A stretch of 64,000 nucleotides of DNA from Afipia sp. OHSU_II-C1 (GTDB lineage Bacteria; Pseudomonadota; Alphaproteobacteria; Rhizobiales; Xanthobacteraceae): the NCBI RefSeq assembly GCF_000497575.1, contig NZ_APJI01000001.1:186001-250000 (forward strand), given 5' to 3'. Under the pieces are notes generated by a model. That model saw only the letters and a list, made by a program, of their open reading frames with translations, had not been told where the DNA came from and ran no database searches. Below are positions 25,790 through 54,043 of this stretch, in pieces. A program made the position numbers and the translations under genes. The first letter of the stretch is position 1. Every line of letters begins with the position of its first letter.

Positions 25790-25806
25790 GGAAGCGTTCC
25801 TTTTCA

Positions 25807-31484: not shown

Positions 31485-32684
31485 ATGGCCAACGATGCGC
31501 CCCAGGACACCACCGGCCCGATCAAACTGGTGATCAGGAATATCGGTCTGATCCTGAGCGGAGCCATGGAGCAGCCGATCCTGGACGCCGACACCATCGT
31601 CGCGGAGAACGGCAAGATTACCGCGATCGGGCGGGCCAAGGACATCGACGCCGAGGGCGCGACCACTGTCATCGACGCCAACGGAACGACGGTCACCCCC
31701 GGCCTGATCGACAGCCACGTCCACCCTGTCGCCGGCGACTGGACCCCGCGGCAGAACCAGATCGGCTGGATCGACAGCTTTCTGAACGGCGGCGTCACCA
31801 CCATGATCTCGGCCGGCGAGGTGCACATGCCCGGCCGTCCGCGCGACGTGGTTGGCGTCAAGGCGATGGCGATCTTCGCTCAGCGTGCGTTCGACAATCT
31901 GCGCCCCGGCGGCGTCAAGGTTCATGCCGGGGCACCGGTGATCGAACCCGGGATGACAGAAGAGGATTTCAAGGAATTGGCGGCAGCCGGCGTCAGGCTG
32001 CTCGGAGAAGTCGGTCTCGGCGGCGTCAAGGATGGCCCGACCGCGCGCAAGATGGTGGCATGGGCACGCAAATACGGGATCCAAAGCACGATCCACACCG
32101 GCGGCCCGTCGATTCCCGGATCCGGCCTGATTGACGCAGACGTGGTGCTTGAAGCCGACACCGACGTTGTCGGCCACATCAACGGCGGCCATACAGCCCT
32201 CCCCGACAGCCAGATCCGATGCATCTGCGAAGGCTGCAAGCGGGGCCTTGAACTGGTTCATAATGGCAACGAACGCTCAGCCCTTTACACCCTGCGCATA
32301 GCCCGCGAGATGAAGGAGCTGAACCGTGTCATTCTCGGCACGGACGCTCCCGCAGGTTCAGGCGTGCAGCCACTCGGCATTCTGCGCATGGTATCGCTGC
32401 TGTCGTCACTTGGCGATGTACCGGCGGAAATCGCATTCTGTTTTGCCACCGGCAACACCGCGCGGATGCGCGCGCTCGACTGCGGCATGATTGAAGTTGG
32501 GCGCGCCGCAGACTTCGTTATCATGGACAAGGCCCAGCATTCCGCCGGCAAGAACATTCTGGACAGCGTTCAGCTTGGCGATCTGCCCGGCATCGGCATG
32601 ACGATCATCGATGGCATTGTCCGCACGCATCGCAGCCGCAACACACCGCCTGCAACAAAAGTGCCGGAGATCGTCGCGCACTAG
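31485..32684 (+). CDS. ena: enamidase (6-oxo-1,4,5,6-tetrahydronicotinate amidohydrolase)
   Basis: 399-residue amidohydrolase-superfamily enzyme. Metal-site residues are visible as H78 and H80 (IDSHVHP), E175 (GEVGLGG), H204 (STIHTGG), H231 (GHINGGH) and D287 (GTDAPAG). Segments such as GGVTTMISAGEVHMPGRPRD, HTGGPSIPGSG and the SRNTPPA tail closely resemble the Fe/Zn enamidase of Eubacterium barkeri, which opens 1,4,5,6-tetrahydro-6-oxonicotinate to 2-formylglutarate and ammonia. A good ribosome site (AAGGAAAAATCC) precedes the ATG. The gene encoding the preceding step, 6-hydroxynicotinate reductase, is 9 kb away, with the MarR and LIV genes between on the opposite strand. Substrate is inferred from similarity and context. 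Confidence 0.82.
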   Translation: MANDAPQDTTGPIKLVIRNIGLILSGAMEQPILDADTIVAENGKITAIGRAKDIDAEGATTVIDANGTTVTPGLIDSHVHPVAGDWTPRQNQIGWIDSFLNGGVTTMISAGEVHMPGRPRDVVGVKAMAIFAQRAFDNLRPGGVKVHAGAPVIEPGMTEEDFKELAAAGVRLLGEVGLGGVKDGPTARKMVAWARKYGIQSTIHTGGPSIPGSGLIDADVVLEADTDVVGHINGGHTALPDSQIRCICEGCKRGLELVHNGNERSALYTLRIAREMKELNRVILGTDAPAGSGVQPLGILRMVSLLSSLGDVPAEIAFCFATGNTARMRALDCGMIEVGRAADFVIMDKAQHSAGKNILDSVQLGDLPGIGMTIIDGIVRTHRSRNTPPATKVPEIVAH

Positions 32685-32695
32685 TCAGCGGGACA

Positions 32696-33178
32696 TCATC
32701 GCAGCTTGTTCAGAAGCGCAACGAAGATTTCACGCTCCTTCGCATCGAGCGGCGCAAGGGTTTCCTTTGAGATCGCCAGTGCATTTGGAGCGGCTTTGTC
32801 TGCCAACGCCTGTCCCGCCCGCGTCAGGCTGACGAGAAGCCGGCGGCCATCCTGCGGGTCCGAGCTGGTTTCTGTTAGCCCACGGGCAGTCAGTCGATCG
32901 ATCACGCCCTTGATAGTGGCAACGTCCATCGCGGTGAGGCGTCCAAGCTGGTTCTGTGAACATGGGCCGGTTTCGGTCAGCTTCGCCAAAGCCGCCCATT
33001 GCGTCGGCGTAAGGTTGATGCCGATTTCCCTTGCGAAGATCGCCGCGTGACGCTGCCAGACCTGACGCAAGACGAAGCCGATCTGATCCTCAAGCACATA
33101 GGGCTGCTTCTTCGGACTTCTCCTCGGAGGAGCACCCTTGGTCGGCGCGGCAATCTTGTTCTGAGCGGCCTTGGCCAT
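32696..33178 (-). CDS. MarR-family transcriptional regulator
   Basis: 160-residue winged-helix protein of the MarR family: an N-terminal basic arm (AAPTKGAPPRRSPKK), then QWAALAKLTETGPCSQNQLGRLTAMDVATIKGVIDRLTARGL as the DNA-binding part, and a dimer helix at both ends. It is the last gene of the leftward reductase/LIV transporter series, 48 bases after livF, and faces the enamidase stop. In Pseudomonas and Bordetella, MarR proteins NicR and BpsR respond to 6-hydroxynicotinate, so a similar effector is a reasonable guess here. Confidence 0.85.
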   Translation of the reverse strand: MAKAAQNKIAAPTKGAPPRRSPKKQPYVLEDQIGFVLRQVWQRHAAIFAREIGINLTPTQWAALAKLTETGPCSQNQLGRLTAMDVATIKGVIDRLTARGLTETSSDPQDGRRLLVSLTRAGQALADKAAPNALAISKETLAPLDAKEREIFVALLNKLR

Positions 33179-33226
33179 TCCGTTCCCCTCATCCTGTCTT
33201 CATCCGGCAGATACTGATCGCAAGAA

Positions 33227-33931
33227 TCACACCGCCAGATGGGCGTCACGTATGTCTGGACGCGCCTCAAGTTCGCTCATGGTGCCGCTGAAGCAAATTC
33301 GCCCGCGCTCGATGATATAGGCGCGGTCGGAAATCAGGTTGGCGAAATGAAGATTCTGTTCGGACACAACGATGCTGACGCCCTCTTTCTTCATCGCAAG
33401 AATGGCGCCTACCATCTGCTCGACGATCTTCGGCGACAATCCTTCCGAGGGCTCGTCAAGCAGGACCAGGGATGGATTTCCCATCAAAGTCCGGGCAATG
33501 GTCAGCATCTGCTGTTCGCCGCCGCTCATGCGTCCACCCATCCGGCCGCGCATCTCGCCGAGATTCGGAAACAGCGTGAACAGCTTTTCGCGGGTCCACT
33601 GCGGAGCATTCTGGCGCGGCGGTTGACGGCCAACCTCCAGATTCTCTTCCACCGTGAGATCGGTGAATATACGGCGCTCCTCCGGCACATAACCGAGCCC
33701 CCCACGCACAATGGCATGGGTCGGTTGAGCCGAAACATCCTTTCCCTCGAACACGATCTGACCTTCACGCTGTTCGACTAAGCCGACGATCGACCGGAAC
33801 GTAGTCGACTTCCCCGCTCCGTTGCGGCCCAGAAGCGCCACGACCTCTCCATCGCCGACCTCAAGGGCGACATCGAACAGGATGTGAGCCGGGCCGTAGT
33901 AGCTGTTGAGTCTCTGAACCGAGAGCTTCAT
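33227..33931 (-). CDS. livF: branched-chain-type ABC transporter ATP-binding protein (LivF-like)
   Basis: 234-residue ABC ATPase with Walker A GRNGAGKSTT, signature MSGGEQQML and Walker B LVLLDEPSEGL. LivF-type traits are YVPEERRIFTDLTVEENL and the short C-terminus. With LivG it powers the fused permease at 34716-36602. Its ATG overlaps the livG stop (ATGA), so the two are made together. Substrate of this LIV/HAAT system is set by the binding protein at 36660; given the gene context it may be a pyridine carboxylate rather than an amino acid. Confidence 0.9.
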   Translation of the reverse strand: MKLSVQRLNSYYGPAHILFDVALEVGDGEVVALLGRNGAGKSTTFRSIVGLVEQREGQIVFEGKDVSAQPTHAIVRGGLGYVPEERRIFTDLTVEENLEVGRQPPRQNAPQWTREKLFTLFPNLGEMRGRMGGRMSGGEQQMLTIARTLMGNPSLVLLDEPSEGLSPKIVEQMVGAILAMKKEGVSIVVSEQNLHFANLISDRAYIIERGRICFSGTMSELEARPDIRDAHLAV

Positions 33932-34719
33932 GCGGGCGTTCCCTCCCGGTGACGCGCATCGTAAACCAGCCCCTCGCCGAGATAGATCGCTCGGACTTGG
34001 GGATTTCGCCGAACTTCCTCTGGCGTCCCCTCCGCGATCAGTGAGCCCCGATTGAGTACAAGGATGCGATCGGCGTGCTCGAACACCACATCCATGTCGT
34101 GCTCGGTGAACAGAACACCGATCGATTTCTCGCGGGCGATGCGCGCGGTCAACCGCATCAGTTCGACGCGCTCGCGTGGCGCCATGCCGGCCGTCGGTTC
34201 ATCCATCAAAAGGAGTTTGGGCTGATTGGCGAGTGCGATCGCGAGTTCGAGGCGCTTGAGGTCGCCATAGGCAAGTTCGCCGCACGGGCGCTCTGCGTAG
34301 CCGCTCATGCCAACAAGGTCGAGCAGCCGGTTTGCTTCGGCGCACTCAAAGCCTGGCGTGGAACGCCACATGTTGAAGAGCTGCGCGTTGTAAGAGATCA
34401 GCGGAACCTGGACGTTCTCGCGCACCGTCATGGTGGGGAACGTAGCGGTGATCTGGAATGTGCGGCCGACGCCAAGCCGCCAGATCGCACGCGGCTTCTT
34501 TCCAGTCGTGTCATTACCCAACAGATTGATCCGGCCACTGTCCGGAACATTCTGGCCATTGAGCATGTCAAAGCATGTGCTTTTGCCGGCTCCGTTGGGT
34601 CCGATCAGCGCAAGAATTTCGCCGGCCGCAAGGGAAAACGACACGCCGCGCACCGCATGAACGCCGCCATACGATTTGGTCAAGCCTTCGACTGACAGAA
34701 GTTTAGGTGCAGCACTCAT
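33928..34719 (-). CDS. livG: branched-chain-type ABC transporter ATP-binding protein (LivG-like)
   Basis: 263-residue ABC ATPase with Walker A GPNGAGKST, the long LivG insertion (FPTMTVRENVQVPLISYNAQLFNMWRS region), a degenerate signature CGELAYGDLKRLELA and Walker B LLLMDEPTAGM. ATG 34719 overlaps the stop of the fused permease in an ATGA junction, which fixes the start; the 50 codons upstream are inside the permease gene. Acts as the second ATPase with LivF. Confidence 0.9.
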   Translation of the reverse strand: MSAAPKLLSVEGLTKSYGGVHAVRGVSFSLAAGEILALIGPNGAGKSTCFDMLNGQNVPDSGRINLLGNDTTGKKPRAIWRLGVGRTFQITATFPTMTVRENVQVPLISYNAQLFNMWRSTPGFECAEANRLLDLVGMSGYAERPCGELAYGDLKRLELAIALANQPKLLLMDEPTAGMAPRERVELMRLTARIAREKSIGVLFTEHDMDVVFEHADRILVLNRGSLIAEGTPEEVRRNPQVRAIYLGEGLVYDARHREGTPA

Positions 34720-36602
34720 TCGGCGCTCTCGATTCTTGACGCCAGAATGGCAGGTTTCGATGCACGTGAGTGACGCCGCGCTCGAACTGTTTCCAGCATA
34801 CCGACGATACCCTTCGGAAACGCGACCACGATCAGCACAATGACCGCGCCAAGCACGAGCTTGGACCAATCCGTCTGACTGACCAGCCAGATGTTCAGTG
34901 CCTTGAAGACAATCGCACCCACCACTGCACCGGAGACCGTCTCGACACCGCCCAGGAGCACCATCACCAATGCATCGACCGACAGCGAGATGCCAAGGCT
35001 GTCGGGAAATACGCTACCCTTGAGGTATGCAAACAATGCACCTCCGATACCGGCGACGGTGCCTGCAATCACAAACGCAGTCCATTGAATACGCTTGCCG
35101 TCGATGCCGATGGCTTCGCTGCGCAAAGCGGAATCGCGGGTCGCACGCAACGCATAACCGAACGGCGAAAACACGATGATGCGAAGCAGCACCACCGCAA
35201 ATGTCGCGATGCCGAGCGACAGCCAGTAAAAATGAACCGGCCCCGCCGCCCATGCATCAGGCCAGACGCCCAGAATTCCGTTATCTCCGCCTGTCACCCC
35301 AACCCACTGGAACGCGATCGACCAGACGATCTGGGCGAAGGCCAGCGTCAGCATCGCGAAATAGACGCCTGAAAGCTGAACTGCGAAAAATCCGAAAATG
35401 GCGGCTCCGATCAGTCCAAACAGAGGCCCCAGCAGCAGACACACGATCATCGGCAGGCCCACAGCCTTGGCGAAGAAGGCAATACCATAGGCTCCGAGAC
35501 CGAAATACGCCGCATGCCCGAACGATGCGAGTCCGCCGACCGACATCAGGAAGTGCAGGCTCGCCGCGAAGATCACGTAGATCGCTATCTCCGCACCGAC
35601 CGTAAGGGCGTAGTTGCCGCCGAACACCGGAAGCGCCGCCGCAACAATCAGTACGGCCAGCACCGCGAGACGTTCGTTCATGGTCAGCGGCCGCCATGGC
35701 CGAACGGTGAGGCCCGGCGTCTTCCGCGCGACTGCTTCGGGTTTGCCAAATAGACCCCAGGGCCGAACGATCAGGACCGCCGCCATCACGAGGAATACGA
35801 GAATAATCGAGATCTTCGGGAATATCAGAATGCCGAACGCATTGAGCTCGGAAACCAGCACGGCCGCGACGAATGCACCGGTGATGCTGCCGAGGCCACC
35901 AATCACGACCACGACGAAAACATCCACGATGATCCGCAGATCCATCGCATGATGAACGGCGTCGCGCGGAATTTGCAGCGCGCCGCCAAGCGCGGCCAGG
36001 AACACACCAAGCGCAAAGACGCTGGTGAACAACCACTTCTGATTGACGCCCAGCGCGGCCACCATGTCGCGATCCTGCGTCGCCGCGCGGACCAGAACGC
36101 CCCAGCGCGTGCGGCGGAACAGCAGCCACAGTGCACCCAGAACGGCGGGGCCGAGCCCGATCAGGAACAGATCATAGGAAGGGATATTCTGCCCGAAGAA
36201 GTCGACAGCGCCCCGGAAGCCGGGAGCGCGGCGGCCCACAAGGTCATCCGGGCCCCAGATCAGAACCACGATATCCTGGACCATCAATGTCAGGCCAAAG
36301 GTGGCAAGAAGCTGAAAGAGTTCCGGCGACTTATAGATCCGCCGCAGCAACACCATTTCGACCAGCACGCCTAGGACCGCAACGACCAGCGCCGCAACGA
36401 CAATGCCACCCCAGAATCCGAGCGCGCCGGACAGCCGCTCTGTCAGGGTAAACGCGACATACGCGCCCAACATGTAGAATGCGCCGTGCGCAAAATTAAC
36501 TATCCGGGTGACGCCGAAAATAATCGACAGTCCCGAGGCAACCAGAAACAGCGACGCCGCGCTCGCAAGGCCGGTCAGGAATTGAACAAAGTAGAAGCTC
36601 AT
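34716..36602 (-). CDS. fused LivH-LivM permease
   Basis: 628-residue inner-membrane protein that joins the two permeases of a LIV-type transporter. Residues 1 to about 290 are LivH-like (IIFGVTRIVNFAHGAFYMLGAYVAF and GGLGSITGAFVAAVLVSEL). A short polar linker near 290-310 leads to a LivM-like half (about 320-600; FGHAAYFGLGAYGIAFFAKA, GGDNGILG and GIGGALFAYLKG). LivH and LivM are usually separate; fusions are known but less common. It lies between the binding protein and livG. A strong hairpin separates it from the binding-protein gene. Confidence 0.9.
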   Translation of the reverse strand: MSFYFVQFLTGLASAASLFLVASGLSIIFGVTRIVNFAHGAFYMLGAYVAFTLTERLSGALGFWGGIVVAALVVAVLGVLVEMVLLRRIYKSPELFQLLATFGLTLMVQDIVVLIWGPDDLVGRRAPGFRGAVDFFGQNIPSYDLFLIGLGPAVLGALWLLFRRTRWGVLVRAATQDRDMVAALGVNQKWLFTSVFALGVFLAALGGALQIPRDAVHHAMDLRIIVDVFVVVVIGGLGSITGAFVAAVLVSELNAFGILIFPKISIILVFLVMAAVLIVRPWGLFGKPEAVARKTPGLTVRPWRPLTMNERLAVLAVLIVAAALPVFGGNYALTVGAEIAIYVIFAASLHFLMSVGGLASFGHAAYFGLGAYGIAFFAKAVGLPMIVCLLLGPLFGLIGAAIFGFFAVQLSGVYFAMLTLAFAQIVWSIAFQWVGVTGGDNGILGVWPDAWAAGPVHFYWLSLGIATFAVVLLRIIVFSPFGYALRATRDSALRSEAIGIDGKRIQWTAFVIAGTVAGIGGALFAYLKGSVFPDSLGISLSVDALVMVLLGGVETVSGAVVGAIVFKALNIWLVSQTDWSKLVLGAVIVLIVVAFPKGIVGMLETVRARRHSRASKPAILASRIESAE

Positions 36603-36625
36603 ATGCGATCCACGGCTGGAAAATG

Positions 36626-36650
36626 CCGCGGGCGCATCGCGCGCCCGCGG
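36626..36650. promoter_or_regulatory. intercistronic hairpin after the LIV binding-protein gene
   Basis: Perfect 10-base GC stem (CCGCGGGCGC / GCGCCCGCGG) with a 5-base loop in the 57-base gap between the binding-protein stop and the permease ATG. It has no U-tract. Such hairpins commonly stabilise the binding-protein mRNA so that it exceeds the membrane components. Confidence 0.6.
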
Positions 36651-36659
36651 TCGCTAAAC

Positions 36660-37892
36660 TCAGTCTTTCGGACGTAACTTCTCGACTTCTGCATCGCTCG
36701 GCAGGAAATCCTCGCCCTTGCGATAAGCGCTATCCACCATCACGCCCTTGCCGTCCTTGAGCGCTGTCTTGCCGACATAGGCGCCGAGGGTGGATTGATG
36801 ATCGATCTTGCGGAAGGTGATCTGACCGAACGGAGACGGCATCGACAATCCTTCCGCCGCAGCGATCATCTTCTCAGGATCGGTCGAATTCGCCTTGATA
36901 AGAATTGCCGCCGCAGCCTTGATCGTCTGATAACCGACGATGGAGCCAAGTCTCGGATAATCGTTGAACTTACCCTGATACGCCTTCAGGAAGGCATCGT
37001 GCTCCGGCGTCTTGATGCTGTACCAGGGATAGCCGGTGACAATCCAACCTGACGGTGTTTCTTCCTTCAGCGGGTCGAGATATTCCGGCTCACCGGTAAG
37101 GAAACTCACCACCGCCCGGTCCTTGAACAGACCGCGCGTGTTGCCCTCGCGGACGAATTTGACGAGATCCGCGCCGAAAGTCACATTGAGGATGGCTTCA
37201 GGATTGGAATTCGCAAGCGCCTGAACGATCGGACCTGCATCGATCTTGCCCTGCGGCGGCCACTGTTCATCTACCCACTGAATGTCGGGCCGTTTCTCGG
37301 ACAGCAGCTTCTTGAAGACCGCAACCGCCGACTGACCATACTCGTAGTTGGGTGCGATGGTCGCCCAGCGCTTGGCGGGCAACTTTGCCGCTTCCTCCAC
37401 CAGCATCGCAGCCTGCATGTAGTTCGATGGGCGCAGGCGGAATGTGTAACGATTTCCCTTCGACCAGGTGATCGCGTCGGTCAGAGGTTCCGCCGCAAGG
37501 AAGAACACCTTTTTCTGCTTGGCGAAATCGCTCACCGCGAGACCAATGTTGGACAGGAACGTGCCAGTCAGCATCACCACGTTCTCATTCGAAACCAGTT
37601 CGTTGGCGGCAGTCTGAGCATCGGCCGGTTTGCCGCTATCGTCCTTGGAGACGACAACGAGCTTCTTGCCGTTGATACCGCCCGCGGCGTTGATTTCCTC
37701 GACAGCGAGCTGCCAGCCCTTGCGATAGGGCTCGGTGAAAGCAGGTAGCAGCGAGTAACTGTTGATTTCGCCGATCTTGATTTCGCCGCTCTGCGCCATG
37801 GCAGCTGTCGCCAGTGCCGAGCCAGCCAAACCGAGACTCGCGGCAAGCCCGAACCCGGACAGACTGCCGAAAAGACGTTTTCTTCGTTGCAT
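36660..37892 (-). CDS. LIV-type ABC transporter substrate-binding protein
   Basis: 410-residue periplasmic binding protein of the leucine/aromatic-compound type (Peripla_BP_6). A basic N-terminus (MQRRKR) and hydrophobic leader ending AAMAQ give export. The mature part has INAAGGINGKKLVVVSKDDSG and ATIAPNYEYGQSAVAVFKKLL. ATG 37892 is chosen because GGAGG lies five bases upstream. It follows two PF06684 genes and precedes its own permease and ATPases. The ligand is unknown; relatives bind aromatic acids, and gene context suggests nicotinate, 6-hydroxynicotinate or a similar acid. Confidence 0.88.
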   Translation of the reverse strand: MQRRKRLFGSLSGFGLAASLGLAGSALATAAMAQSGEIKIGEINSYSLLPAFTEPYRKGWQLAVEEINAAGGINGKKLVVVSKDDSGKPADAQTAANELVSNENVVMLTGTFLSNIGLAVSDFAKQKKVFFLAAEPLTDAITWSKGNRYTFRLRPSNYMQAAMLVEEAAKLPAKRWATIAPNYEYGQSAVAVFKKLLSEKRPDIQWVDEQWPPQGKIDAGPIVQALANSNPEAILNVTFGADLVKFVREGNTRGLFKDRAVVSFLTGEPEYLDPLKEETPSGWIVTGYPWYSIKTPEHDAFLKAYQGKFNDYPRLGSIVGYQTIKAAAAILIKANSTDPEKMIAAAEGLSMPSPFGQITFRKIDHQSTLGAYVGKTALKDGKGVMVDSAYRKGEDFLPSDAEVEKLRPKD

Positions 37893-37998
37893 CCCAACCT
37901 CCATTGTTGCCAGGACCCGCGTCCCGTTCACTTCCCGTCCGCTCCTTATCCCGGTGGAGCGGTTCGGCCTTTCTTTCGCATCAAGCGCAAACAGACCG

Positions 37999-38583
37999 CT
38001 AGCGCAATCCGTCCTCGCCCTTGACCTCTCCAATGGTCAGACCGCCGACTCGTGGCAACGGCCGCCCACTGTCGGTCACGGCAACTGCCACCATGATTTC
38101 GTTCGCCCGGGGTGCATCATTGATCTGCACTTCCATCCCGTCGAAATGACTCCGCACGAACGCCGCATCCTTGTGGCCAAGGGGAATGTCGAGCACTGTT
38201 CCCAATCCGCCGCGCTTTTTGGAGGATGGAATCAGCGCAGCCCCCTTGCCTAATACCTTGCGCACCGGCGCTCCCATCTTCGGATGCAAAATCGCTGCCG
38301 CGTGCTCCAGTTCGCCATTCTCGCCGACGGCCGCCGCCTTGCCGTAGCTTTGCGCTTTGCCACCTTCGATACCGAGCGCTGCAACCGCCTTTAAGGCGAG
38401 CAGTTCGCCAAGTTCCTCGCCAATTGAGATCAATGGCGACAGGTCATCGACAAACCTGCCAGCAAACGGATTGTCGATGACTGCGACAGCGGCAGCGCGA
38501 CGGGTCGGCGGCGAGACATCGCGCCCGCCCTCCATCAGCGTCTCCTCGACCACCGTGACGATCTTGCGAATGACGGCGCTCAT
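37999..38583 (-). CDS. PF06684 (DUF1185, 'amino acid synthesis') family protein, copy 2
   Basis: 194-residue protein of PF06684, a family whose first crystal structure was described as a chorismate-mutase-like fold and whose reaction is not known. Conserved stretches are NPFAGRFVDDL, GELEHAAAILHPKMG, SSKKRGGLGTVLDIPLGHK, VRSHFDGMEV and the C-terminal VGGLTIGEVKGEDGLR. It is about the same length as, and clearly similar to, the next gene upstream (38580-39164), with which it overlaps by an ATGA junction. The tight coupling suggests the two form a hetero-oligomer. Found here in a pyridine-degradation context. Confidence 0.85.
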   Translation of the reverse strand: MSAVIRKIVTVVEETLMEGGRDVSPPTRRAAAVAVIDNPFAGRFVDDLSPLISIGEELGELLALKAVAALGIEGGKAQSYGKAAAVGENGELEHAAAILHPKMGAPVRKVLGKGAALIPSSKKRGGLGTVLDIPLGHKDAAFVRSHFDGMEVQINDAPRANEIMVAVAVTDSGRPLPRVGGLTIGEVKGEDGLR

Positions 38584-39164
38584 CGTAGCCCATCCTCTCC
38601 CTTGATCTCATTTGCCTTGAGACCGCCGACCCTGGCGTGAATGCGCGAGCCCGTGGTCATGACAAGCGCGAGAAGTAATTCGCCCGCGCGGGGCGCGTCC
38701 GGAATGCCGACCTCCATGGCGTCGAAATGCGAGCGTACATAAGACGCGCTGATATGCGTCACCGGAACATCGAGCCGCGCACCCGGACCGCCAACCTTCT
38801 TGGCAGACGGTACAATGGCCTTGGCCTCGCCAAGAATCTCGCGCATCGCGTAGCCGCCGGGCACATGCCACAATGCGCCATGCTCGAGTTCACCCAACGC
38901 ACCAACAACCGCACCTTTGCCATAGCCTTGTATCGCGTTCGGGTCTCCGCCAAGCGCCTTGAGCAAGGAACTCGCCATTGCAACACCGAGCGGCGTCAAA
39001 TCATCCATGAATCCTGCGATATCCTCGACATAACGTCCGGCGAACGGATTGCGGATCACACACAGGATAGCCCCACGGCGTAACGGCTGCGCCGCCGGCT
39101 TCCCGCCTTCGTGGAAAATCTCCTCAATCACGGTGGCGCGCTTACGGATCACGACCTCAGACAT
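38580..39164 (-). CDS. PF06684 (DUF1185, 'amino acid synthesis') family protein, copy 1
   Basis: 194-residue paralogue of the following gene, with the same landmarks: NPFAGRYVEDIAGFMDDL, GELEHGALWHVPGGYAM, SAKKVGGPGARLDVPVTH, VRSHFDAMEVGIPDAPRAGE and RVGGLKANEIKGEDGLR. Several charged and histidine positions (GELEHG, SHFD) are kept in both copies and may be catalytic. It overlaps the end of the upstream UPF0280 gene by eight bases, so the order reductase, UPF0280, PF06684, PF06684 is one tightly packed unit. Function unknown; a hydrolase or isomerase step on an N-heterocycle-derived intermediate is one possibility. Confidence 0.85.
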   Translation of the reverse strand: MSEVVIRKRATVIEEIFHEGGKPAAQPLRRGAILCVIRNPFAGRYVEDIAGFMDDLTPLGVAMASSLLKALGGDPNAIQGYGKGAVVGALGELEHGALWHVPGGYAMREILGEAKAIVPSAKKVGGPGARLDVPVTHISASYVRSHFDAMEVGIPDAPRAGELLLALVMTTGSRIHARVGGLKANEIKGEDGLR

Positions 39165-40077
39165 ACGGCAAACTTTCAGTTCCGGTTCGGGCGGCTACAT
39201 ACGGCGGAGGTCGCCGCGCAACACCATCAATATTCTTCAGTGCAACAACGCGTGTTTCGCCTTGCAGATGCAACGCCGCGCCATCGATCAATCCGGCTTC
39301 CAAGAGTAAAAAGGCGGTATCGGCCCCAAAATCCAACGCTGCCGCAATGTCGTTCAATGAAAGTTCATCGACCTCGCGAGTGACCAAACGAGCACCGAGA
39401 TCGCTATCGGGCTGAATTTCGTTTGCCGGACACCGGACGATGGCGGGATGTTCCGGCAAATCAACCGCATTGGCTATAATGGTTGCCGCAGCATCGGCCT
39501 GCGCGGCTGTTTGCGCCAGAACCGTCACTGCGTCGGCTATCCCGAGCGAAAAGCTGCGGCCACGCCATCCACTGGTCGCGATGCCGCGCATCTTATCATC
39601 CGCTGCAATCCGAGTTTTCCCGATCAAATTTGGTTTGTCAGGGCGGTCAACGAGGCCAATCGTGAAATGCTGGCCATTGCCGAGATGCAGCGCAATGTCA
39701 CCGCCGTTGTTGACATAAGCACGATCGAGATCAGCGGCCTTCAACATCGCCCCGAGAATTTCCTCAGCGACGGCGCCGGCGACGGCGGCCATCGGCGTAA
39801 CAAAATGATCGGCCGCGAATGGAGCAACCGCATCATACATCCGGCGCGCGACATCTCCCCTCAGCAAACTGGCTGGAGGCTGTGCCTGCTTACGCAGTTC
39901 CGATAATTCGCCACAGAGTTCGTCAAGAAGACCGGTGAAACGGTCTAGGGCAGCCTGGTACGCGGCACTGACGTTCGCCGCAGTTCCACGCGCCTCCACA
40001 ATCAGATCGATCGGGCCGTCATGCAGGTGAATCCGCCTACGGTCCGCGAGCCATCCGATTTGTGGGAGGCGTTTCAT
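39157..40077 (-). CDS. UPF0280 protein, ApbE-like (candidate flavin transferase)
   Basis: 306-residue protein of the UPF0280 family, which shares the ApbE fold. ApbE-like elements visible are NNGGDI (123-128; ApbE has NxGGDI), MRGIATSG (163-170), ADAVTVLA (181-188) and QADAAAT (193-199; compare ADALATA of ApbE). ApbE attaches FMN to target proteins. There is no signal peptide, so it would act in the cytoplasm. Its ATG overlaps the stop of the 6-hydroxynicotinate reductase gene (ATGA), and the clostridial reductase is known to hold covalent flavin. A role in flavinylating the reductase is therefore plausible but not shown. Confidence 0.75.
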   Translation of the reverse strand: MKRLPQIGWLADRRRIHLHDGPIDLIVEARGTAANVSAAYQAALDRFTGLLDELCGELSELRKQAQPPASLLRGDVARRMYDAVAPFAADHFVTPMAAVAGAVAEEILGAMLKAADLDRAYVNNGGDIALHLGNGQHFTIGLVDRPDKPNLIGKTRIAADDKMRGIATSGWRGRSFSLGIADAVTVLAQTAAQADAAATIIANAVDLPEHPAIVRCPANEIQPDSDLGARLVTREVDELSLNDIAAALDFGADTAFLLLEAGLIDGAALHLQGETRVVALKNIDGVARRPPPYVAARTGTESLPYV

Positions 40078-41540
40078 TTGCGCGATCTCGGCTCGGAAAG
40101 TTGTTTCGGCAACTGGCGGACTTCCGTATTGTTCTTCAATGACGCCAATGGCCGCACATGATCCATGTGACCACCGAGTGCTGCGTAGTCCGACAATCGC
40201 AGGGTGAACTCGATCGGCGCGACCAGCGCGGGTGTCGGCACATAGCCGAAGGCTCCTTCCGGCATCAGCGTCACATCAACCATGAATGTGATGCCCCCAC
40301 CTGGCCAAACATAGACCGGCGCGCCGCCACAGGTCACCGACGTCAACGCGTCCTTGACCGACCGTGTCAGCCGGACCGGGTTGTCCGTCACACCCGCCCG
40401 GAGCGAGCCGCCAGCGCCGCCCATGAACAGCACGGTGCACAGCGCGGGCTCACAATTCTCCTGAATCCGCTCGACGGACAGCTTGAGATCGGCAGGCATT
40501 TCCTTCTCGACCGGCTTCAGCGCCTCATCGAGCTCGAAATACGCAGCATGCTCGCCGGTCGTACTCACCATCATTATCCGCAGACCGGGTCGTGCGGTCT
40601 TGGGATCAAACGGACCGAGTACCGACAAGGGATCGGAAATATTCGTACCGCCCCAGCCAATACCGGGTTCAGCGACCTGAAAATAGCGTCCGGGCGTCGA
40701 GCGCCGCCCCTTCAGTTTGATCCCGGTCTCGGGAATATCGAGCAACTTGCCAGCCTGATGTTCCGACAGCACGCCGGTGATGTGATCGTCCACCACGACA
40801 ACTTCATCGACCTTGCCGTGCCACTGCTTCGCGAACATCCCGATGGTCGCCGAACCGCAGCCAACCCTCATCCGCTCTTCCGGAACGCCATTGACGATTG
40901 GCGGGTAGCCGGCTTGCACCACTACAGTTGCACCACCGTCGATCGTCATCTCGACAGGCTTGCCGTTGGACAAATCCATCAGCGCGTCACAGGTAACCCG
41001 GCCTTCCTTCTTGGAACCGCCCGTCAGGTGGTGAACACCGCCGAGCGACAGCATCTGCGAACCGTACTCGCCGGTCGTGACATGCCCCACCGCCTCGCCC
41101 TGTACACGCACTGTCGCGGTTTCAGGGCCGAGATAACGGTCGGTGTCGATCTTCACCTTGACGCCGCAATAGCTGAAGATTCCCTCGGTCACCACCGTGA
41201 CCATATCGACGCCATCGACCTCGGAAGAAACAATAAACGGCGCGGGCTTGTAGTCCGGATAGGTTGTGCCAGCGCCGATCGCCGTCACAAAGACACCCGG
41301 CTCGTGAACGATCTTGCCATCCCAATCGCCACCGGCCTGAAACGGAACAAGCCGCCCGCCATGGGACACCGTGCGTTCCAGCACCACATGCGGATCGACA
41401 CGAACAAGTTCGCCATTGTTGTTGGCATACCGATCACACGCCCCTGCAGCGCCCGGCTTGATGTAGCACATCACCGGACATGCATCGCAGCGGATCTTGT
41501 CCGAACTGCCGGTAGTGACGGGGTTTGTTTCAGTCAGCAT
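40074..41540 (-). CDS. hnr: 6-hydroxynicotinate reductase
   Basis: 488-residue protein of the 6-hydroxynicotinate reductase family, which reduces 6-hydroxynicotinate to 1,4,5,6-tetrahydro-6-oxonicotinate with low-potential electrons. An N-terminal cluster of cysteines (C18, C21, C25, C35 in CDACPVMCYIKPGAAGAC) looks like a 4Fe-4S site. Further cysteines in FSYCGVKV, RVTCDAL, RVGCGSATIG, QENCEPALC and SVTCGGAPV could bind more clusters, as in the E. barkeri enzyme (one 2Fe-2S, two 4Fe-4S, covalent flavin). ATG 41540 is chosen because the 44 codons upstream fall in the promoter region. It starts a leftward operon through the LIV genes and is divergent from nicA. Confidence 0.8.
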   Translation of the reverse strand: MLTETNPVTTGSSDKIRCDACPVMCYIKPGAAGACDRYANNNGELVRVDPHVVLERTVSHGGRLVPFQAGGDWDGKIVHEPGVFVTAIGAGTTYPDYKPAPFIVSSEVDGVDMVTVVTEGIFSYCGVKVKIDTDRYLGPETATVRVQGEAVGHVTTGEYGSQMLSLGGVHHLTGGSKKEGRVTCDALMDLSNGKPVEMTIDGGATVVVQAGYPPIVNGVPEERMRVGCGSATIGMFAKQWHGKVDEVVVVDDHITGVLSEHQAGKLLDIPETGIKLKGRRSTPGRYFQVAEPGIGWGGTNISDPLSVLGPFDPKTARPGLRIMMVSTTGEHAAYFELDEALKPVEKEMPADLKLSVERIQENCEPALCTVLFMGGAGGSLRAGVTDNPVRLTRSVKDALTSVTCGGAPVYVWPGGGITFMVDVTLMPEGAFGYVPTPALVAPIEFTLRLSDYAALGGHMDHVRPLASLKNNTEVRQLPKQLSEPRSRK

Positions 41541-41628
41541 GACCAAACTCGAGTCCGAGCCAAACTGAACTGACGAGCGGCGCTGACGCCGCGAGGATAA
41601 AATTCCGTCCGTCCACATCCGGCATTTT

Positions 41629-41642
41629 GTTCGTATACGAAC
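41629..41642. promoter_or_regulatory. perfect palindrome GTTCGTATACGAAC, operator candidate
   Basis: A 14-base perfect palindrome 88 bases upstream of the reductase start. With the second palindrome at 41801 it shares the core TTyGTATACrAA, which fits the FadR-subfamily GntR consensus (TnGTnnnACnA, here with a two-base centre). Two such perfect palindromes in one 332-base divergent region are unlikely by chance. The FCD-type GntR at 47648-48385 is the best local candidate; the MarR at 32696 is the alternative. Confidence 0.7.
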
Positions 41643-41800
41643 GATGGTGCGCGCAGACCAGAAACCTGTCAAGCGCCGCCGCGTGCGAAATCCCGGACTG
41701 CCGAATAAAAACTCAATTGCCTACCGTTGGTGTTCACAAATCGTGCAATGCATCATACCCACGAGACAGCGGCATTTTCTGTTCCCTCACTTGGCTTGCA

Positions 41801-41816
41801 CGTTTGTATACAAACG
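41801..41816. promoter_or_regulatory. perfect palindrome CGTTTGTATACAAACG, operator candidate
   Basis: A 16-base perfect palindrome 56 bases upstream of the nicA start, 173 bases centre to centre from the related site at 41629. Its place near the nicA promoter suits repression of nicAB, while the other site suits the reductase operon. Apart from these two sites nothing else is visible in the 332-base gap (41541-41872). Confidence 0.72.
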
Positions 41817-41872
41817 GTATCGTTGTGGCACGCGTTGCCGGAGTTTGCAGCGCAACAGACCGGACCGTGACG

Positions 41873-42361
41873 ATGAGCATGATGCAAACAACGATCCGCC
41901 TGAACGTCAACGGGAGCGTTCGAGATATCGAGGCGGCGCCGGACACTGCCCTTCTCTACGTGCTGCGTAACGACCTCGAACTGAACGGACCGAAATTCGG
42001 CTGCGGGCTTGGGGAATGCGGCGCGTGTACGGTTATCATTGATGGGGTGGCGGCACGCTCTTGCGTCATTCCCGTCAGCGGATGTGCGCAGCGAGACATC
42101 CTCACACTCGAGGGTCTTGGTTCGCGAGATAATCCTGATCCGGTACAGAAGGCGTTTATCGAGGAACAGGCCGCGCAGTGCGGCTACTGTCTCAACGGCA
42201 TGATTATGGCGACGAAGGCTCTGCTTATGCAGAATCCGCATCCCTCCGAATCCGAAGTGCTGAATACATTGCAATACAACCTGTGCCGATGTGGTGCACA
42301 CATCGAAATCCTGCGCGCTGTGATGCGCGCAGCCGGTCGTGCTGTCGAGGAACAACAATAA
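41873..42361 (+). CDS. nicA: nicotinate hydroxylase 2Fe-2S subunit (NicA-like)
   Basis: 162-residue iron-sulfur subunit of a molybdenum hydroxylase. First 2Fe-2S site: C44, C49, C52 and C64 (GCGLGECGACTVIIDG). Second: C103, C106, C138 and C140 (QCGYCLNG and LCRCGAH). It passes electrons from the Mo site to the haems of its partner. Size and pairing match NicA (about 157 residues) of Pseudomonas putida. In-frame ATGs at 41873, 41879 and 41882 are all possible starts; no strong ribosome site is seen. The stop overlaps the partner's ATG (TAATG), so the subunits are translationally coupled. Confidence 0.9.
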   Translation: MSMMQTTIRLNVNGSVRDIEAAPDTALLYVLRNDLELNGPKFGCGLGECGACTVIIDGVAARSCVIPVSGCAQRDILTLEGLGSRDNPDPVQKAFIEEQAAQCGYCLNGMIMATKALLMQNPHPSESEVLNTLQYNLCRCGAHIEILRAVMRAAGRAVEEQQ

Positions 42362-45300
42362 TGGCGGTGGAATCCCCGATGGACCGTCACCCCTCACTCT
42401 CGGGAACGCTGTCCGTCGTGCGCCCGGCTTCTTCGGGCAGCAATGAAGCAGCTTTCGAGACTTTCATTAAGGTAACCGCAGAAGGGACTGTTACCGCATT
42501 CAATGGCCACGTCGACCTTGGGACCGGCATCCGTACCGCCCTCGGTCAAATCGTCGCGGAAGAGCTCGACGTCTCGTTCGCGCGCGTGGTCGTTATATTG
42601 GGTGATACGTCAGTTGTGCCTAACCAGGGCGCGACTATCGCGAGCGAGACCATCCAGATCACGGCCGTGCCGTTGCGCAAGGCTGCTGCGCAGGCCCGCC
42701 ACTTTCTGCTGGCGCGCGCCGCAGAGAAGCTCGATCTGCCGGTCCACGATTTGTCGGTGGAGGATGGTCTGATCCGCGGCCACGACAACCGCAGCATCAG
42801 TTACGGCGAACTTATCGCCGGCGAAAGCTTCCGACTCGAACTCGCCGACGACGTCCCGGTCAAATCAGTCGATGCCTACAAGATCGTCGGGCAGTCGACA
42901 CCGCGCGTCGACCTTCCTGCCAAAGCGACAGGTGAGCTGGTTTATGTACATGACGTGCGGGTCCCGGGCATGCTGCATGGCCGAGTGGTCCGCCCGCCGT
43001 ATGCCGGGGTCGATGCGGGAAATTTTGTCGGCACCAGCCTGATAGCCGTTGATGAATCGTCGGTTCGCGATATCCCGGGAATTGTATCGGTGGTGCAGAT
43101 CGGCGACTTCATCGGGATCGTCGCCGAGCGTGAAGAAAATGCGATCAAGGCAGCTACCCAGCTAAAAGTCACCTGGAAGCCGACGCCCACGCTGCCAAAT
43201 CTCCAAGATATTGAAACCACGCTCCGCGCCAATCCAAGCGCGCCGCGCACGTTAGTCGATAAGGGCGATGTCGATGCTGCCATCGCGTCCGCGGACAAGC
43301 CGCTCAAACGAACCTATGTTTGGCCGTATCAGATGCATGGTTCGATTGGACCATCCTGCTCGGTTGCCGACATACAGGACGGCGTCGTGCGGGTCTGGTC
43401 CGGCACGCAAAATCCGCACATTCTGCGCACCGACCTTGCACTGCTTCTTGCACTGCCGGAATCCCAAATTGATGTGATCCGCATGGAGGCTGCGGGTTGC
43501 TATGGCCGCAACTGCGCTGACGACGTGTCCGCCGATGCTGTACTGCTATCGCGTGCAGTGGGCCGCCCGGTTCGCGTGCAACTGACACGCGAGCAGGAAC
43601 ACGCGTGGGAGCCGAAAGGCACAGCGCAACTGATGGAGGTCAACGGCGGACTGCACGCCGACGGCAGTGTCGCCGCCTACGACTTCACAACGCGGTACCC
43701 TTCGAACGGCGCGCCGACCCTGGCGCTGCTACTGACCGGAACTGTTCCTCCGGTGCCGGCAGTGTTCGAGATGGGCGATCGGACCGCGATTCCGCCCTAT
43801 GACTACGACGCAATCCGCGTGGTCGCGCATGATATGCCGCCGATCGTGCGAGCATCCTGGTTTCGTGGCGTATCGGCGCTGCCGAATACATTCGCACACG
43901 AGTCCTACATCGATGAACTCGCGACCGAGGCCGGCGTCGATCCCATTGAATATCGATTGCGCTATCTGAAGGACCCCCGCGCCGTCGATCTTGTCAACGC
44001 TGTAGCTGAGCGCGCCGGGTGGACTCCCCGCACGGTCTGGCAAGAACCGAAAGCCGAAGGCGATGTTGTCCGCGGACGCGGCTTCGCTTACGCGCTTTAC
44101 GTCCACAGCAAATTCCCCGGCTATGGTGCGGCGTGGTCGGCCTGGATCGCGGACGTGGCGGTCAACAAGTCAACCGGTGACGTGAGTGTGACGCGCGTGG
44201 TTGCGGGGCAAGATTCCGGGCTGATGATCAACCCGGATGGCGTGCGCCACCAGATCCACGGCAACGTCATCCAGTCGACCAGCCGGGCGCTGATGGAGGA
44301 AGTTTCGTTTGATCGGACTGCGGTGGCCAGCCGGGAATGGGGCACCTACCCGATCATCAAGTTTCCAGATGTACCCAAGATCGATGTGCTGATGCTGCCA
44401 CGCCAAGATCAGCCGCCGCTTGGCGTCGGTGAATCCGCTTCTGTCCCCAGCGCGGCAGCCATAGCCAACGCCATCTTCGACGCAACCGGGGTGCGGTTTC
44501 GCGAGCCGCCGTTTACCCCGGAGCGCATCCTCGCCGGGCTGCGCGCCCAAGAGCCGATACCAGCCGCGTTGCCAAGACCAACGTCTAAACCGCAGGAACA
44601 GCCAACCCAAACTCACAGCGATCCGTTCCGCAAACGGCGTAATGTGGCTGCAGGCATCCTCGCAACATGTGCCGCGGTTCTCAGCGTCGCTGCAGCGGCG
44701 CTGCCGTGGCGATCAATTGCGCCAATTGCACCGCCGGATAAATCGACCTATTCGGCGGCGACCATTGCCCGGGGCCAGCAACTCGCCGCGCTCGGCAATT
44801 GCGCGGTGTGCCACACGGAGGCCAATGGTGTCGTCAATGCCGGTGGACGCGCGCTCGAAACACCATTCGGCATCATCTATAGCACCAACATCACTCCCGA
44901 CACCGAAACTGGAATCGGCGCATGGTCCTATCCAGCCTTCGAACGATCAATGCGCGAGGGCATTCACCGCGATGGCCGACAGCTCTATCCCGCGTTTCCC
45001 TATAATCACTTCGCCAGAGCAACCGATGCCGACTTGCAGGCGCTCTACGCCTACCTGATGGCACAGGCGCCGGTCCGGGCCGTCAATCGGGAAAGCACGC
45101 TGGCGTTTCCCTTCAATCTCCGCCCTCTGCTGGCAGGTTGGAATGCACTGTTTCATAAGCCGGACGTCTTCGCGCCCGACCCTACCCGCTCGCCTGTGTG
45201 GAATCGCGGAGCCTATCTGGTCGAAAGCCTGGGTCACTGCGGCGCTTGCCACACGCCGCGCAACGCCTTGGGCGCGGAGAGAAATGCCAAAGCCTACCTG

Positions 45301-45930
45301 GCCGGCGGGGTTGCGGAAGGCTGGGAAGCACCACCGCTAACCAACCTGTCTCATGCGCCGATTCCCTGGAGCGAAGACGAATTCTTCGCTTATCTGCGAA
45401 CAGGGATATCCCGTTTCCATGGTGTCGCCGCCGGACCGATGGCGCCCATCGTAAGAGATCTTGCGTCCGTGCCGGACACCGACATCCGCGCCATGGCGGT
45501 CTATCTCGCCTCCTTCAACAACACGACAATTTCTCCGTCGGCTCAGGATGCCTTGGCAAATCGGCTGGAAACGGCAACAAGCGTGAAAGCGGCTTCGGCG
45601 TCCGCGACAGGCTCACGAATCTATGACGGCGCCTGCGCTGTGTGCCATCAAGTTGGCGGCCCGGTTCTGTTCGGCAGCAGACCATCGCTGGCCCTGAACA
45701 CCAACCTGCACAGCGACGCGCCCGATAACCTCATTCAGATCATTCTCCATGGCATCGACCAGCCGGTATCCAGCGATCTCGGCTACATGCCGGCATTCAA
45801 AAACAGCCTCAATGACCAACAGGTGATGGAGCTGGTTTCATACCTCAGGCAACAGTTCGCCCCAGACAAGGCGCCCTGGACCGACGTGGCCACGGCGATT
45901 AGCCGGGTTCGCCGTGGAGGCAAACCATAA
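42361..45930 (+). CDS. nicB: nicotinate hydroxylase large subunit with three haem-c sites (NicB-like)
   Basis: 1189-residue protein, nearly the length of P. putida NicB. Residues 1 to about 745 form the Mo-cofactor domains (HVDLGTGIRTALGQIVAEELDV, AAGCYGRNCADDVSADAV, and the late GVGESASVPSAAAIANAI with the conserved catalytic glutamate). A membrane-spanning helix follows near 760-780. Then come three cytochrome c domains with CXXCH at 814 (CAVCH), 960 (CGACH) and 1092 (CAVCH). The enzyme hydroxylates nicotinate at C6 and hands electrons through the haems to the respiratory chain. No FAD subunit is needed or present. The related IorB isoquinoline enzyme lacks the haems, which favours the NicB reading. 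Confidence 0.88.
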   Translation: MAVESPMDRHPSLSGTLSVVRPASSGSNEAAFETFIKVTAEGTVTAFNGHVDLGTGIRTALGQIVAEELDVSFARVVVILGDTSVVPNQGATIASETIQITAVPLRKAAAQARHFLLARAAEKLDLPVHDLSVEDGLIRGHDNRSISYGELIAGESFRLELADDVPVKSVDAYKIVGQSTPRVDLPAKATGELVYVHDVRVPGMLHGRVVRPPYAGVDAGNFVGTSLIAVDESSVRDIPGIVSVVQIGDFIGIVAEREENAIKAATQLKVTWKPTPTLPNLQDIETTLRANPSAPRTLVDKGDVDAAIASADKPLKRTYVWPYQMHGSIGPSCSVADIQDGVVRVWSGTQNPHILRTDLALLLALPESQIDVIRMEAAGCYGRNCADDVSADAVLLSRAVGRPVRVQLTREQEHAWEPKGTAQLMEVNGGLHADGSVAAYDFTTRYPSNGAPTLALLLTGTVPPVPAVFEMGDRTAIPPYDYDAIRVVAHDMPPIVRASWFRGVSALPNTFAHESYIDELATEAGVDPIEYRLRYLKDPRAVDLVNAVAERAGWTPRTVWQEPKAEGDVVRGRGFAYALYVHSKFPGYGAAWSAWIADVAVNKSTGDVSVTRVVAGQDSGLMINPDGVRHQIHGNVIQSTSRALMEEVSFDRTAVASREWGTYPIIKFPDVPKIDVLMLPRQDQPPLGVGESASVPSAAAIANAIFDATGVRFREPPFTPERILAGLRAQEPIPAALPRPTSKPQEQPTQTHSDPFRKRRNVAAGILATCAAVLSVAAAALPWRSIAPIAPPDKSTYSAATIARGQQLAALGNCAVCHTEANGVVNAGGRALETPFGIIYSTNITPDTETGIGAWSYPAFERSMREGIHRDGRQLYPAFPYNHFARATDADLQALYAYLMAQAPVRAVNRESTLAFPFNLRPLLAGWNALFHKPDVFAPDPTRSPVWNRGAYLVESLGHCGACHTPRNALGAERNAKAYLAGGVAEGWEAPPLTNLSHAPIPWSEDEFFAYLRTGISRFHGVAAGPMAPIVRDLASVPDTDIRAMAVYLASFNNTTISPSAQDALANRLETATSVKAASASATGSRIYDGACAVCHQVGGPVLFGSRPSLALNTNLHSDAPDNLIQIILHGIDQPVSSDLGYMPAFKNSLNDQQVMELVSYLRQQFAPDKAPWTDVATAISRVRRGGKP

Positions 45931-45981
45931 AATAGCACCCAGTGGCTGGCTGCCCGCGAGGGAGCCGGATATGATCCCGGC

Positions 45982-47286
45982 ATGGCCATTACAGATATCG
46001 CTTCGCGAACCTACAATCACGGCTGGCGGCTCGACCCGATCGTCCGCAGTCTGCTCGATACCGACTTCTACAAGCTGCTGATGCTCCAGATGATCCGGGA
46101 ATTCTACCCGGACGAGCATGTGACGTTTTCGGTCATCAATCGCACCCACCACGTCCGGCTCGGTGAAGTGATCGACGAGGGCGAACTTCGCGCTCAACTG
46201 GATCACGCCCGCACGGTGCGCTTTACCAAGAAAGAGCTGATCTGGCTTGCAGGTAATACCTTCTACGGCAAGACGCAGATGTTCTCGCCGGGTTTCATCA
46301 GTTGGCTGGCGACATTCCAGCTGCCTGAATATGAACTCCATACGGTCGACGGCCAGTACGAACTGCACTTCCATGGACCGTGGACGCACACCACGATGTG
46401 GGAGATTCCCGCGCTCGCCATCATCAATGAATTACGCTCGCGGCAAGCCATGAAGGGCCAGGGGCGCTTCGTTCTCGATGTGCTTTACGCGCGCGCCAAG
46501 GCGAAACTCTGGACCAAGGTCGAGCGTCTGCGCAAACTGGATGGCCTGCGGCTGTCGGACTTCGGAACGCGGCGGCGGCATGGTTTCCTCTGGCAGCGCT
46601 GGTGCGTCGAAGCCGTCAAGGAAGGACTGGGACCAGCGTTCACCGGAACATCCAACGTGCTGCTGGCGATGGACAATGACCTCGAAGCCATCGGTACAAA
46701 TGCGCACGAACTGCCGATGGTCGCGGCGGCTCTAGCGAAAGATGACGACGAACTGCGCTGGGCGCCCTATCTGATCCTCGATCAATGGCGCCATACCTAC
46801 GACGGAAACCTTCTCATCGCCCTGCCCGATGCCTTTGGCACGAAAGCCTTTCTACGCGACGCTCCGGACTGGGTGGCAGACTGGACCGGCTTTCGTCCCG
46901 ACAGTGCCCCACCCATCGCAGCGGGCGAGGAGATCATCAAATGGTGGAAGGAAAAAGGGCGCGACCCGAAAGAGAAGCTTCTCATCTTCTCGGACGGGAT
47001 GGATGTCGGATCGATTGAGGAAACACATCGATACTTTGCCGGACGCGTCAGGACCAGTTTCGGGTGGGGCACAAATCTCACCAACGACTTTGTCGGTTGT
47101 GCGCCGGACGGCACCGCCGATCTCGATCCGATCTCACTTGTCTGCAAGGTGACAGCTGTTAACGGAAAGCCAGCGGTGAAGCTTTCGGATAACCCGGAAA
47201 AGGCGACCGGAAATCCATCCGAGATTGCCCGTTACTTGAGAGTTTTCGGAAACGCCGGCCGCGTCCGCAGCGCAGTTCACGTGTAA
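45982..47286 (+). CDS. pncB: nicotinate phosphoribosyltransferase
   Basis: 434-residue type-II phosphoribosyltransferase that makes nicotinate mononucleotide from nicotinate and PRPP for NAD salvage. Family segments include [27 protein letters not shown] at the N-terminus, [13 protein letters not shown] (the phosphorylated-histidine region), [14 protein letters not shown] and [20 protein letters not shown]. It follows nicB by 51 bases on the same strand with a GAGGGAGCCGG ribosome site, so salvage and breakdown of the same molecule may be cotranscribed. Confidence 0.93.
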
Positions 47287-48783: not shown

Positions 48784-48785
48784 CC

Positions 48786-50376: not shown

Positions 50377-50393
50377 GCATGTTTCCGCGATTT

Positions 50394-52109: not shown

Positions 52110-52112
52110 CCG

Positions 52113-54022: not shown

Positions 54023-54043
54023 GGAAGCCCCCACCCCTGACCG

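Follow-up and report, generated by a model that had tools for sequence, protein, structure and literature searches.

What route of nicotinate breakdown is encoded in an alphaproteobacterium that is presumably aerobic, to judge from its kinship? The question is raised by a gene cluster in a 64,000-nucleotide stretch of DNA from Afipia sp. OHSU_II-C1 (contig NZ_APJI01000001.1, positions 186,001 to 250,000), hereafter the window, in whose positions all coordinates are given. Between positions 31485 and 45930 lie nicA and nicB for nicotinate dehydrogenase, hnr for a predicted 6-hydroxynicotinate reductase (Hnr) and ena for an enamidase (Ena), together with genes for an ATP-binding cassette (ABC) importer, a MarR-family regulator, two AA_synth proteins and a UPF0280 protein. 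As a whole, this gene content is best explained, in our view with high confidence, as a reductive nicotinate catabolic cluster of the Azorhizobium and Eubacterium barkeri type.

A preliminary description of the stretch had placed nicA, nicB with three CxxCH motifs, hnr and ena in one cluster, and domain and homology searches confirm all of them at their places. A nicotinate hydroxylase is supported by the domains and motifs of both its subunits, NicB carrying the sites CAVCH, CGACH and CAVCH beside its MoCoBD domains. Residues 14-396 of Ena align with the solved protein 2vun, named ENAMIDASE, which we take to be the E. barkeri enzyme. Loss of catalytic residues from Ena, raised in the preliminary description as a sign against the pathway, is not seen: H78, H80, E175, H204, H231 and D287, presumably the metal or catalytic ligands, are identical in 2vun.

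In the proposed pathway, the importer would take up nicotinate or 6-hydroxynicotinate. NicAB would convert nicotinate to 6-hydroxynicotinate and deliver the electrons to the respiratory chain via its cytochrome part, Hnr would reduce 6-hydroxynicotinate to 1,4,5,6-tetrahydro-6-oxonicotinate (THON), and Ena would turn THON into 2-formylglutarate and ammonia, with further breakdown via glutarate. What the sequence itself establishes is the homology of Ena, NicA and NicB, the order of the genes, their co-occurrence and the palindromes; the reactions in this organism, the substrate transported, the regulation and the parts played by FNR, UPF0280, HyuAB and AA_synth are inferred. The route from 6-hydroxynicotinate through THON to 2-formylglutarate, already put forward in the preliminary description, is well supported and is also the reading of the orthologous cluster given in passages of PMC3511419. 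There, a nicotinate degradation cluster is described as conserved in Bradyrhizobiaceae SG-6C, Azorhizobium caulinodans, Bradyrhizobium japonicum USDA110 and Rhodopseudomonas palustris HaA2; breakdown in SG-6C is drawn via THON (legend of Fig. 4), the text has the reductive step suggested by the genes, and the later steps in Azorhizobium run via glutarate. The same E. barkeri/Azorhizobium route appears in part of PMC9304392. Since the orthologous cluster and the route are published, the reductive assignment is probably right and is not new.

The features of the cluster and its immediate borders are as follows.

30539 to 31312, minus strand: ferredoxin--NADP+ reductase (FNR), candidate electron supply of Hnr (NCBIfam PRK10926, E 3.4e-44, under its curated cut-off)
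31485 to 32684, plus strand: ena, enamidase (phmmer to 2vun, E 1.3e-111)
32696 to 33178, minus strand: MarR-family regulator, candidate regulator of the cluster (PF01047; homologues annotated nicR in plasmid loci L195 and L197)
33227 to 36602, minus strand: ABC importer as a whole (tblastn to the annotated livH/livM/livG/livF of plasmid locus L199 and the ABC genes of plasmid locus L196)
33227 to 33931, minus strand: LivF, part of the importer
33928 to 34869, minus strand: LivG open reading frame (ORF), part of the importer
34716 to 36602, minus strand: fused LivHM, part of the importer
36660 to 38033, minus strand: ORF of the importer's substrate-binding protein, start codon uncertain (66% to an annotated ABC substrate-binding protein of L196)
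37999 to 38583, minus strand: AA_synth protein, type 2 (PF06684)
38580 to 39164, minus strand: AA_synth protein, type 1 (PF06684)
39157 to 40077, minus strand: UPF0280/COG2122 protein, proposed Hnr maturation factor (NF003322, 409 bits against a cut-off of 290)
40074 to 41540, minus strand: hnr, 6-hydroxynicotinate reductase (annotations of plasmid homologues, alignments)
41629 to 41642, no strand: palindrome GTTCGTATACGAAC, candidate operator 5' of hnr (sequence search)
41801 to 41816, no strand: palindrome CGTTTGTATACAAACG, candidate operator 5' of nicA (sequence search)
41879 to 42361, plus strand: nicA, [2Fe-2S] subunit of nicotinate dehydrogenase (domains)
42361 to 45930, plus strand: nicB, molybdopterin subunit fused to a cytochrome c part (MoCoBD domains and three CxxCH)
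45982 to 47286, plus strand: pncB, nicotinate phosphoribosyltransferase of salvage (NF003704, 508 bits, above cut-off)

The genes hnr, UPF0280, AA_synth type 1 and AA_synth type 2 are each joined to the next by overlaps of 4-8 bases (4 bp between hnr and UPF0280), and nicA and nicB overlap by one base. Because the LivG ORF overlaps the next one, its true start is probably further in. The stretch from 31485 to 47286 delimited in the preliminary description does contain ena, hnr and nicAB, but its end takes in pncB, which supplies no pathway step and which is next to nicB in some of the loci from related Afipia/Bradyrhizobium. UPF0280, the two AA_synth genes, the importer, the MarR gene and the two palindromes were absent from that description.

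Hnr matches no Pfam or NCBIfam family at E 0.001, and a PDB search gave no credible match. Its nearest named sequences, labelled Afipia, are 97% and 94% identical (among the best 80 of at least 594 loci), and the 33 other sequences aligned with it keep 60-84% identity to the window protein. Among 26 plasmid homologues at 66-75% identity, 17 are annotated as 6-hydroxynicotinate reductase and three as hypothetical protein, six being unannotated there; the SG-6C homologue, according to a passage of PMC3511419, is 42% identical to E. barkeri Hnr. Eight cysteines (18, 21, 25, 35, 125, 184, 228 and 363) are nearly invariant in the alignments. The E. barkeri enzyme, reportedly described by Alhapel in 2006, is said to bear a covalently bound flavin and several iron-sulfur (Fe-S) clusters. 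Besides the covalent flavin, these are one [2Fe-2S] and two [4Fe-4S] clusters. Two points weigh against the assignment of Hnr: its activity rests on published homology, because it has neither family model nor structure, and the eight cysteines do not obviously suffice for all those clusters. Among candidate families, a stretch resembling GCV_T_C recurs in 34 of 34 Hnr sequences (Pfam, E up to 10; best 4e-05) and is too short for use; six other Pfam families in the same search were each matched by one member only.

The distribution of Hnr was followed in two draws of genomes, one of 385 Alphaproteobacteria (class draw, Hnr called at E 1e-10 or better) and one across the phylum of 249 genomes (phylum draw). 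Hnr occurs in 68 and 18 of these, respectively; five Hnr genomes are common to both draws, leaving 81 distinct ones. Gene neighbourhoods were compared in 60 class-wide loci, taken from the 67 Hnr genomes other than the window's own (seven with hnr near a contig end were omitted), and in the best 80 of at least 594 loci found by scanning named genomes (named loci). An hnr homologue is also present in 26 of 72,556 plasmid records, including Sulfitobacter, Rhizobium, one of the Comamonadaceae and others; five such loci (L195, L196, L197, L198 and L199) were examined. Eight metagenome bins labelled Acidobacteria, Sulfotelmatobacter or Terriglobia/Terriglobales (L164, L165, L170, L173, L174, L178, L179 and L192) have an hnr 75-78% identical to that of the window, through transfer or mis-binned contigs.

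The preliminary description had called Hnr an iron-sulfur reductase typical of anaerobes. Being found in 68 of 385 alphaproteobacterial genomes, it is widespread in the class and so not typical of anaerobes only. The combination of NicAB with Hnr, thought uncommon, proves to be so in part. Cytochrome-type NicB (45% identity or more) is found in 47 of the 80 named loci, from Afipia, Bradyrhizobium, Bosea, Xanthobacter, Rhodopseudomonas, Rhodoplanes, Rhizobium and Agrobacterium, but in a single one of the 60 class-wide loci (L039), many of which have a distant MoCoBD protein and a NicA-like subunit adjoining hnr in its place. The combination is therefore ordinary among the window's relatives and unusual class-wide.

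UPF0280 accompanies Hnr closely. Its model NF003322 finds it in 68 class-draw genomes, a list identical to that of Hnr by script comparison, and in the same 18 phylum-draw genomes as Hnr, compared by eye; all 81 distinct Hnr genomes have it, and neither gene was found alone in any genome of the two draws. In 57 of 60 class-wide and 76 of 80 named loci, it follows hnr on the same strand at a distance of no more than 150 bp. It is further away in L055, L098, L156 and L161, frame breaks splitting genes in the first two, and L097 ends within hnr and has UPF0280 on another contig. The hnr of L098 (genome G028) is split into two overlapping frames, a pseudogene or a sequencing error. Homologues are annotated as UPF0280 family protein in L196 and L198. 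In L157 and L180 no UPF0280 was found within the stretch examined, which counts against a strict pairing. Because shared operon descent can yield the same pattern, co-occurrence shows partnership, not mechanism.

As to what the partner does, a profile search links UPF0280 to the solved protein 2o34 (E 1.4e-12), presumably a Desulfovibrio COG2122 protein. Comparing the UPF0280 profile with four ApbE proteins, of which three belong to the same genus as the window and the fourth to the same order, gives a probability of 88 and E 3.3e-6 over residues 111-202, where the ApbE blocks GGD/GGE, ATSG and ADxxAT align; against PF02424 itself the protein falls below the cut-off (23.9 versus 25.6 bits). 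By these profiles UPF0280 is a distant ApbE relative. It would be a dedicated partner of Hnr, most likely a maturation factor acting by cofactor insertion or covalent flavin attachment. Taking flavin and Fe-S/persulfide chemistry together, we hold such a role in Hnr maturation to be rather probable; the ApbE kinship, the cofactors reported for E. barkeri Hnr and the published link of COG2122 to DUF39 favour it, and the balance between the two chemistries is even.

That UPF0280 attaches the covalent flavin to Hnr, as a cytosolic ApbE relative with a changed active site, is a tentative proposal. It draws on the strict co-occurrence and adjacency of the two genes, the three conserved blocks, the covalent flavin reported for E. 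barkeri Hnr and the fact that the window genome has no other PF02424 (ApbE) match at E 0.001. Two observations weigh against it: the profile alignment has a gap at the ApbE stretch H..(D/N)P.TG, which holds the general-base histidine, and the ApbE target motif D-x-x-[ST]-G-A-[ST] occurs in 0 of 77 Hnr rows (two alignments, the window sequence in both). The role of that histidine is treated in a passage of PMC12052999.

An Fe-S or persulfide step on Hnr, such as has been proposed for COG2122 with DUF39 in homocysteine synthesis, is possible to a similarly limited degree. According to passages of PMC5764234, Desulfovibrio depends on COG2122 as well as on DUF39 to make homocysteine, and the fitness of COG2122 tracks that of DUF39 (r = 0.98, 170 experiments); the same passages cite a persulfide role proposed for it and the opinion that the flavin-binding region is not a shared feature. 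The match to 2o34 and the eight nearly invariant cysteines of Hnr point the same way. On the other hand, no Pfam link to DUF39 appears in 34 Hnr sequences, DUF39 sequences themselves not having been compared with Hnr, and a dedicated partner would be superfluous for general Fe-S assembly.

Ring opening is the other step at which Hnr genomes differ. Ena orthologues (69-100% identity in the class draw, 66-89% in 13 further Hnr genomes) are present in 30 of the 68 class-draw Hnr genomes; G064, G104 and G289, with an Ena relative of only 38-42%, are excluded from the Ena counts. HyuB, sought with the L199 protein at 60% identity or more, is present in 39 of the 68: all 38 without Ena, and the window genome. 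The 13 further genomes include seven with Ena and eight with HyuB, two having both and none neither. Over all 81, Ena is found in 37 and HyuB in 47, with Ena only in 34, HyuB only in 44, both in three and neither in none, so that strict exclusion between the two, considered as a rule, is rejected (3/81). None of 80 Hnr-free genomes has HyuB at that level, two having weaker matches of 45% and 51%. At the loci themselves, 19 of the 31 that are Ena-free have HyuA (54% or more) close to hnr, against 0 of 29 with Ena in the genome, of which L075 has a 37% relative. The plasmid loci with hnr and no ena nearby (L195, L197, L198 and L199) carry HyuA/HyuB-type genes, and L196 has ena.

The best PDB match of the L199 HyuB is 6yra, Hydantoinase (E 4.9e-77), presumably caprolactamase, an ATP-dependent lactam hydrolase; 7hk5, N-methylhydantoinase, also matches. 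Since THON is a lactam, the hydantoinase/oxoprolinase HyuAB is probably the ring opener of those Hnr genomes that lack Ena. Several facts temper this conclusion. The 60% cut-off was chosen after the rows had been seen; of the 80 Hnr-free controls, many of them small, no more than 20 reach 3 Mb, and Ena was not sought there; three Ena genomes (G065, G231 and G368) have a weaker HyuB of 44-45%; and two of the 13 further genomes, as well as the window genome, have HyuB despite Ena. The window genome's HyuB (65%) is on another contig, where the HyuAB domains PF01968, PF05378 and PF02538 (Hydantoinase_A and Hydantoinase_B) are accompanied by other transporter genes.

The absence of an Ena orthologue from 38 of 68 Hnr genomes, and of a NicB-type first enzyme from 59 of 60 class-wide loci, could also be taken to mean that the substrate of Hnr is, in many of the genomes that have it, a different pyridine or lactam, nicotinate being left to the Ena type alone. 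We think this unlikely: Hnr keeps its 60-84% identity to the window's across the 33 other sequences, and HyuAB loci can still carry annotated nicA/nicB (L197 and L199). It is highly improbable that the product of the cluster enters an oxidative route of the NicC type, or that the locus serves NAD salvage only, for although pncB adjoins nicB, the hnr and ena frames are open, their proteins are highly conserved and no NicC-like gene was found among the window genes searched, a search that covered part of the window genes and not the rest of the genome.

The interval from hnr to nicA contains two perfect palindromes of one type, GTTYGTATACRAAC, through which the MarR protein probably controls hnr and nicAB. 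When up to two mismatches are allowed, 48 of 77 named loci, most of them close kin, have such a site in the 400 bp 5' of hnr (37/37 of L115-L151, two more close kin and 9/38 of the remainder), and 23 of 43 have one near ena. At up to three mismatches, the window holds no sites but these 2, against 3.4 expected by chance, and its ena promoter has none; both facts weaken the case for an operator. The number of sites alone means nothing, and it is their exactness and position that count. Scanning the same interval for sigma-70 promoters gave no match.

Low-potential electrons for Hnr may come from NADPH by way of the neighbouring FNR and a ferredoxin. FNR is near hnr in 10 of 40 loci (L152, L154, L156, L157 and L159-L194), in shuffled arrangements, and in two of five plasmid loci (L196 and L199). 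Its presence in only three of the 60 class-wide loci (L039, L057 and L059) weighs against this.

For the AA_synth proteins, of which type 2 goes with Ena, a step later than ring opening is probable. Rows from 66 loci, together with those of the window, separate into two clades, both supported at 100/100 in a bootstrap that is not fully settled. Of the 27 labelled type-2 rows, 24 come from loci whose genome has Ena, and type 1 has 19 Ena rows and 22 others, the latter being rows with no Ena orthologue known for the genome or from a plasmid locus without ena. The closest solved structures of type 2, 2qtp and 3byq, are both uncharacterised. The fold class would suit an enamine hydrolysis like that of RidA, or a reaction of 2-formylglutarate, although this is a guess. 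AA_synth does not qualify as a strict partner of Hnr, being present in 59 of 68 Hnr genomes and also in 22 that are Hnr-free.

Other parts of the window carry further catabolic-type genes. On the minus strand at 47648-55702, a GntR-like regulator, an AtzH-like protein (PF11533), an AtzE-family amidohydrolase and a dipeptide-type ABC transporter form a second nitrogen-compound cluster beside that for nicotinate. The plus strand at 57812-61068 encodes a molybdenum hydroxylase large subunit (MoCoBD) and an FAD subunit that is closest to glyceraldehyde dehydrogenase beta, under that model's cut-off. At 25016-27173, an acetoacetate decarboxylase (PF06314) adjoins a patatin-like protein with DUF3734.

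The window cluster is thus one more member of a published group. What may be new is the strict link of Hnr with UPF0280, the presence of Ena or HyuB in every Hnr genome sampled and the association of one AA_synth clade with Ena. In the literature searched, part of it in excerpts, neither the strict link nor the two alternative ring openers was found, nor UPF0280 by name, nor a hydantoinase with nicotinate and 6-hydroxynicotin in one paper. The published cluster has two unknown proteins, and by its position UPF0280 probably corresponds to one of them. We would suggest, speculatively, that UPF0280/COG2122 represents a new class of cytosolic enzymes that install cofactors, a histidine-less ApbE relative that loads both Hnr (with covalent flavin or by an Fe-S/persulfide step) and the DUF39 of methanogens and Desulfovibrio, and that in proteobacteria HyuAB, as an ATP-dependent lactamase, has replaced the enamidase in about half of the sampled pathways (44/81 Hnr genomes, with HyuB and no Ena orthologue). 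Through the cluster, two gaps can be put to the test: what UPF0280 does, a matter unsettled in homocysteine synthesis, and how the ring is opened without an enamidase; a purified Hnr/UPF0280 pair would give a simple assay for a protein family that spans methanogens to soil bacteria.

Among known systems, most of the examined Bradyrhizobium loci have one AA_synth gene, the window having two. With the nicotinate fermentation cluster of E. barkeri it has Hnr and the enamidase in common, but its first enzyme is a cytochrome-type NicAB, whereas that of E. barkeri is a four-subunit dehydrogenase. The NicAB of Pseudomonas putida has the same build, with a [2Fe-2S] NicA and a NicB bearing molybdopterin and three haem sites; in the window NicAB is followed by Hnr and Ena, not by NicC. 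With the ApbE flavin transferases UPF0280 shares GGD/GGE, ATSG and ADxxAT but not H..(D/N)P.TG, and Hnr does not have their target motif. The HyuB of L199, finally, is homologous to the hydantoinase/oxoprolinase family (6yra, 7hk5), and THON is the substrate proposed for HyuAB.

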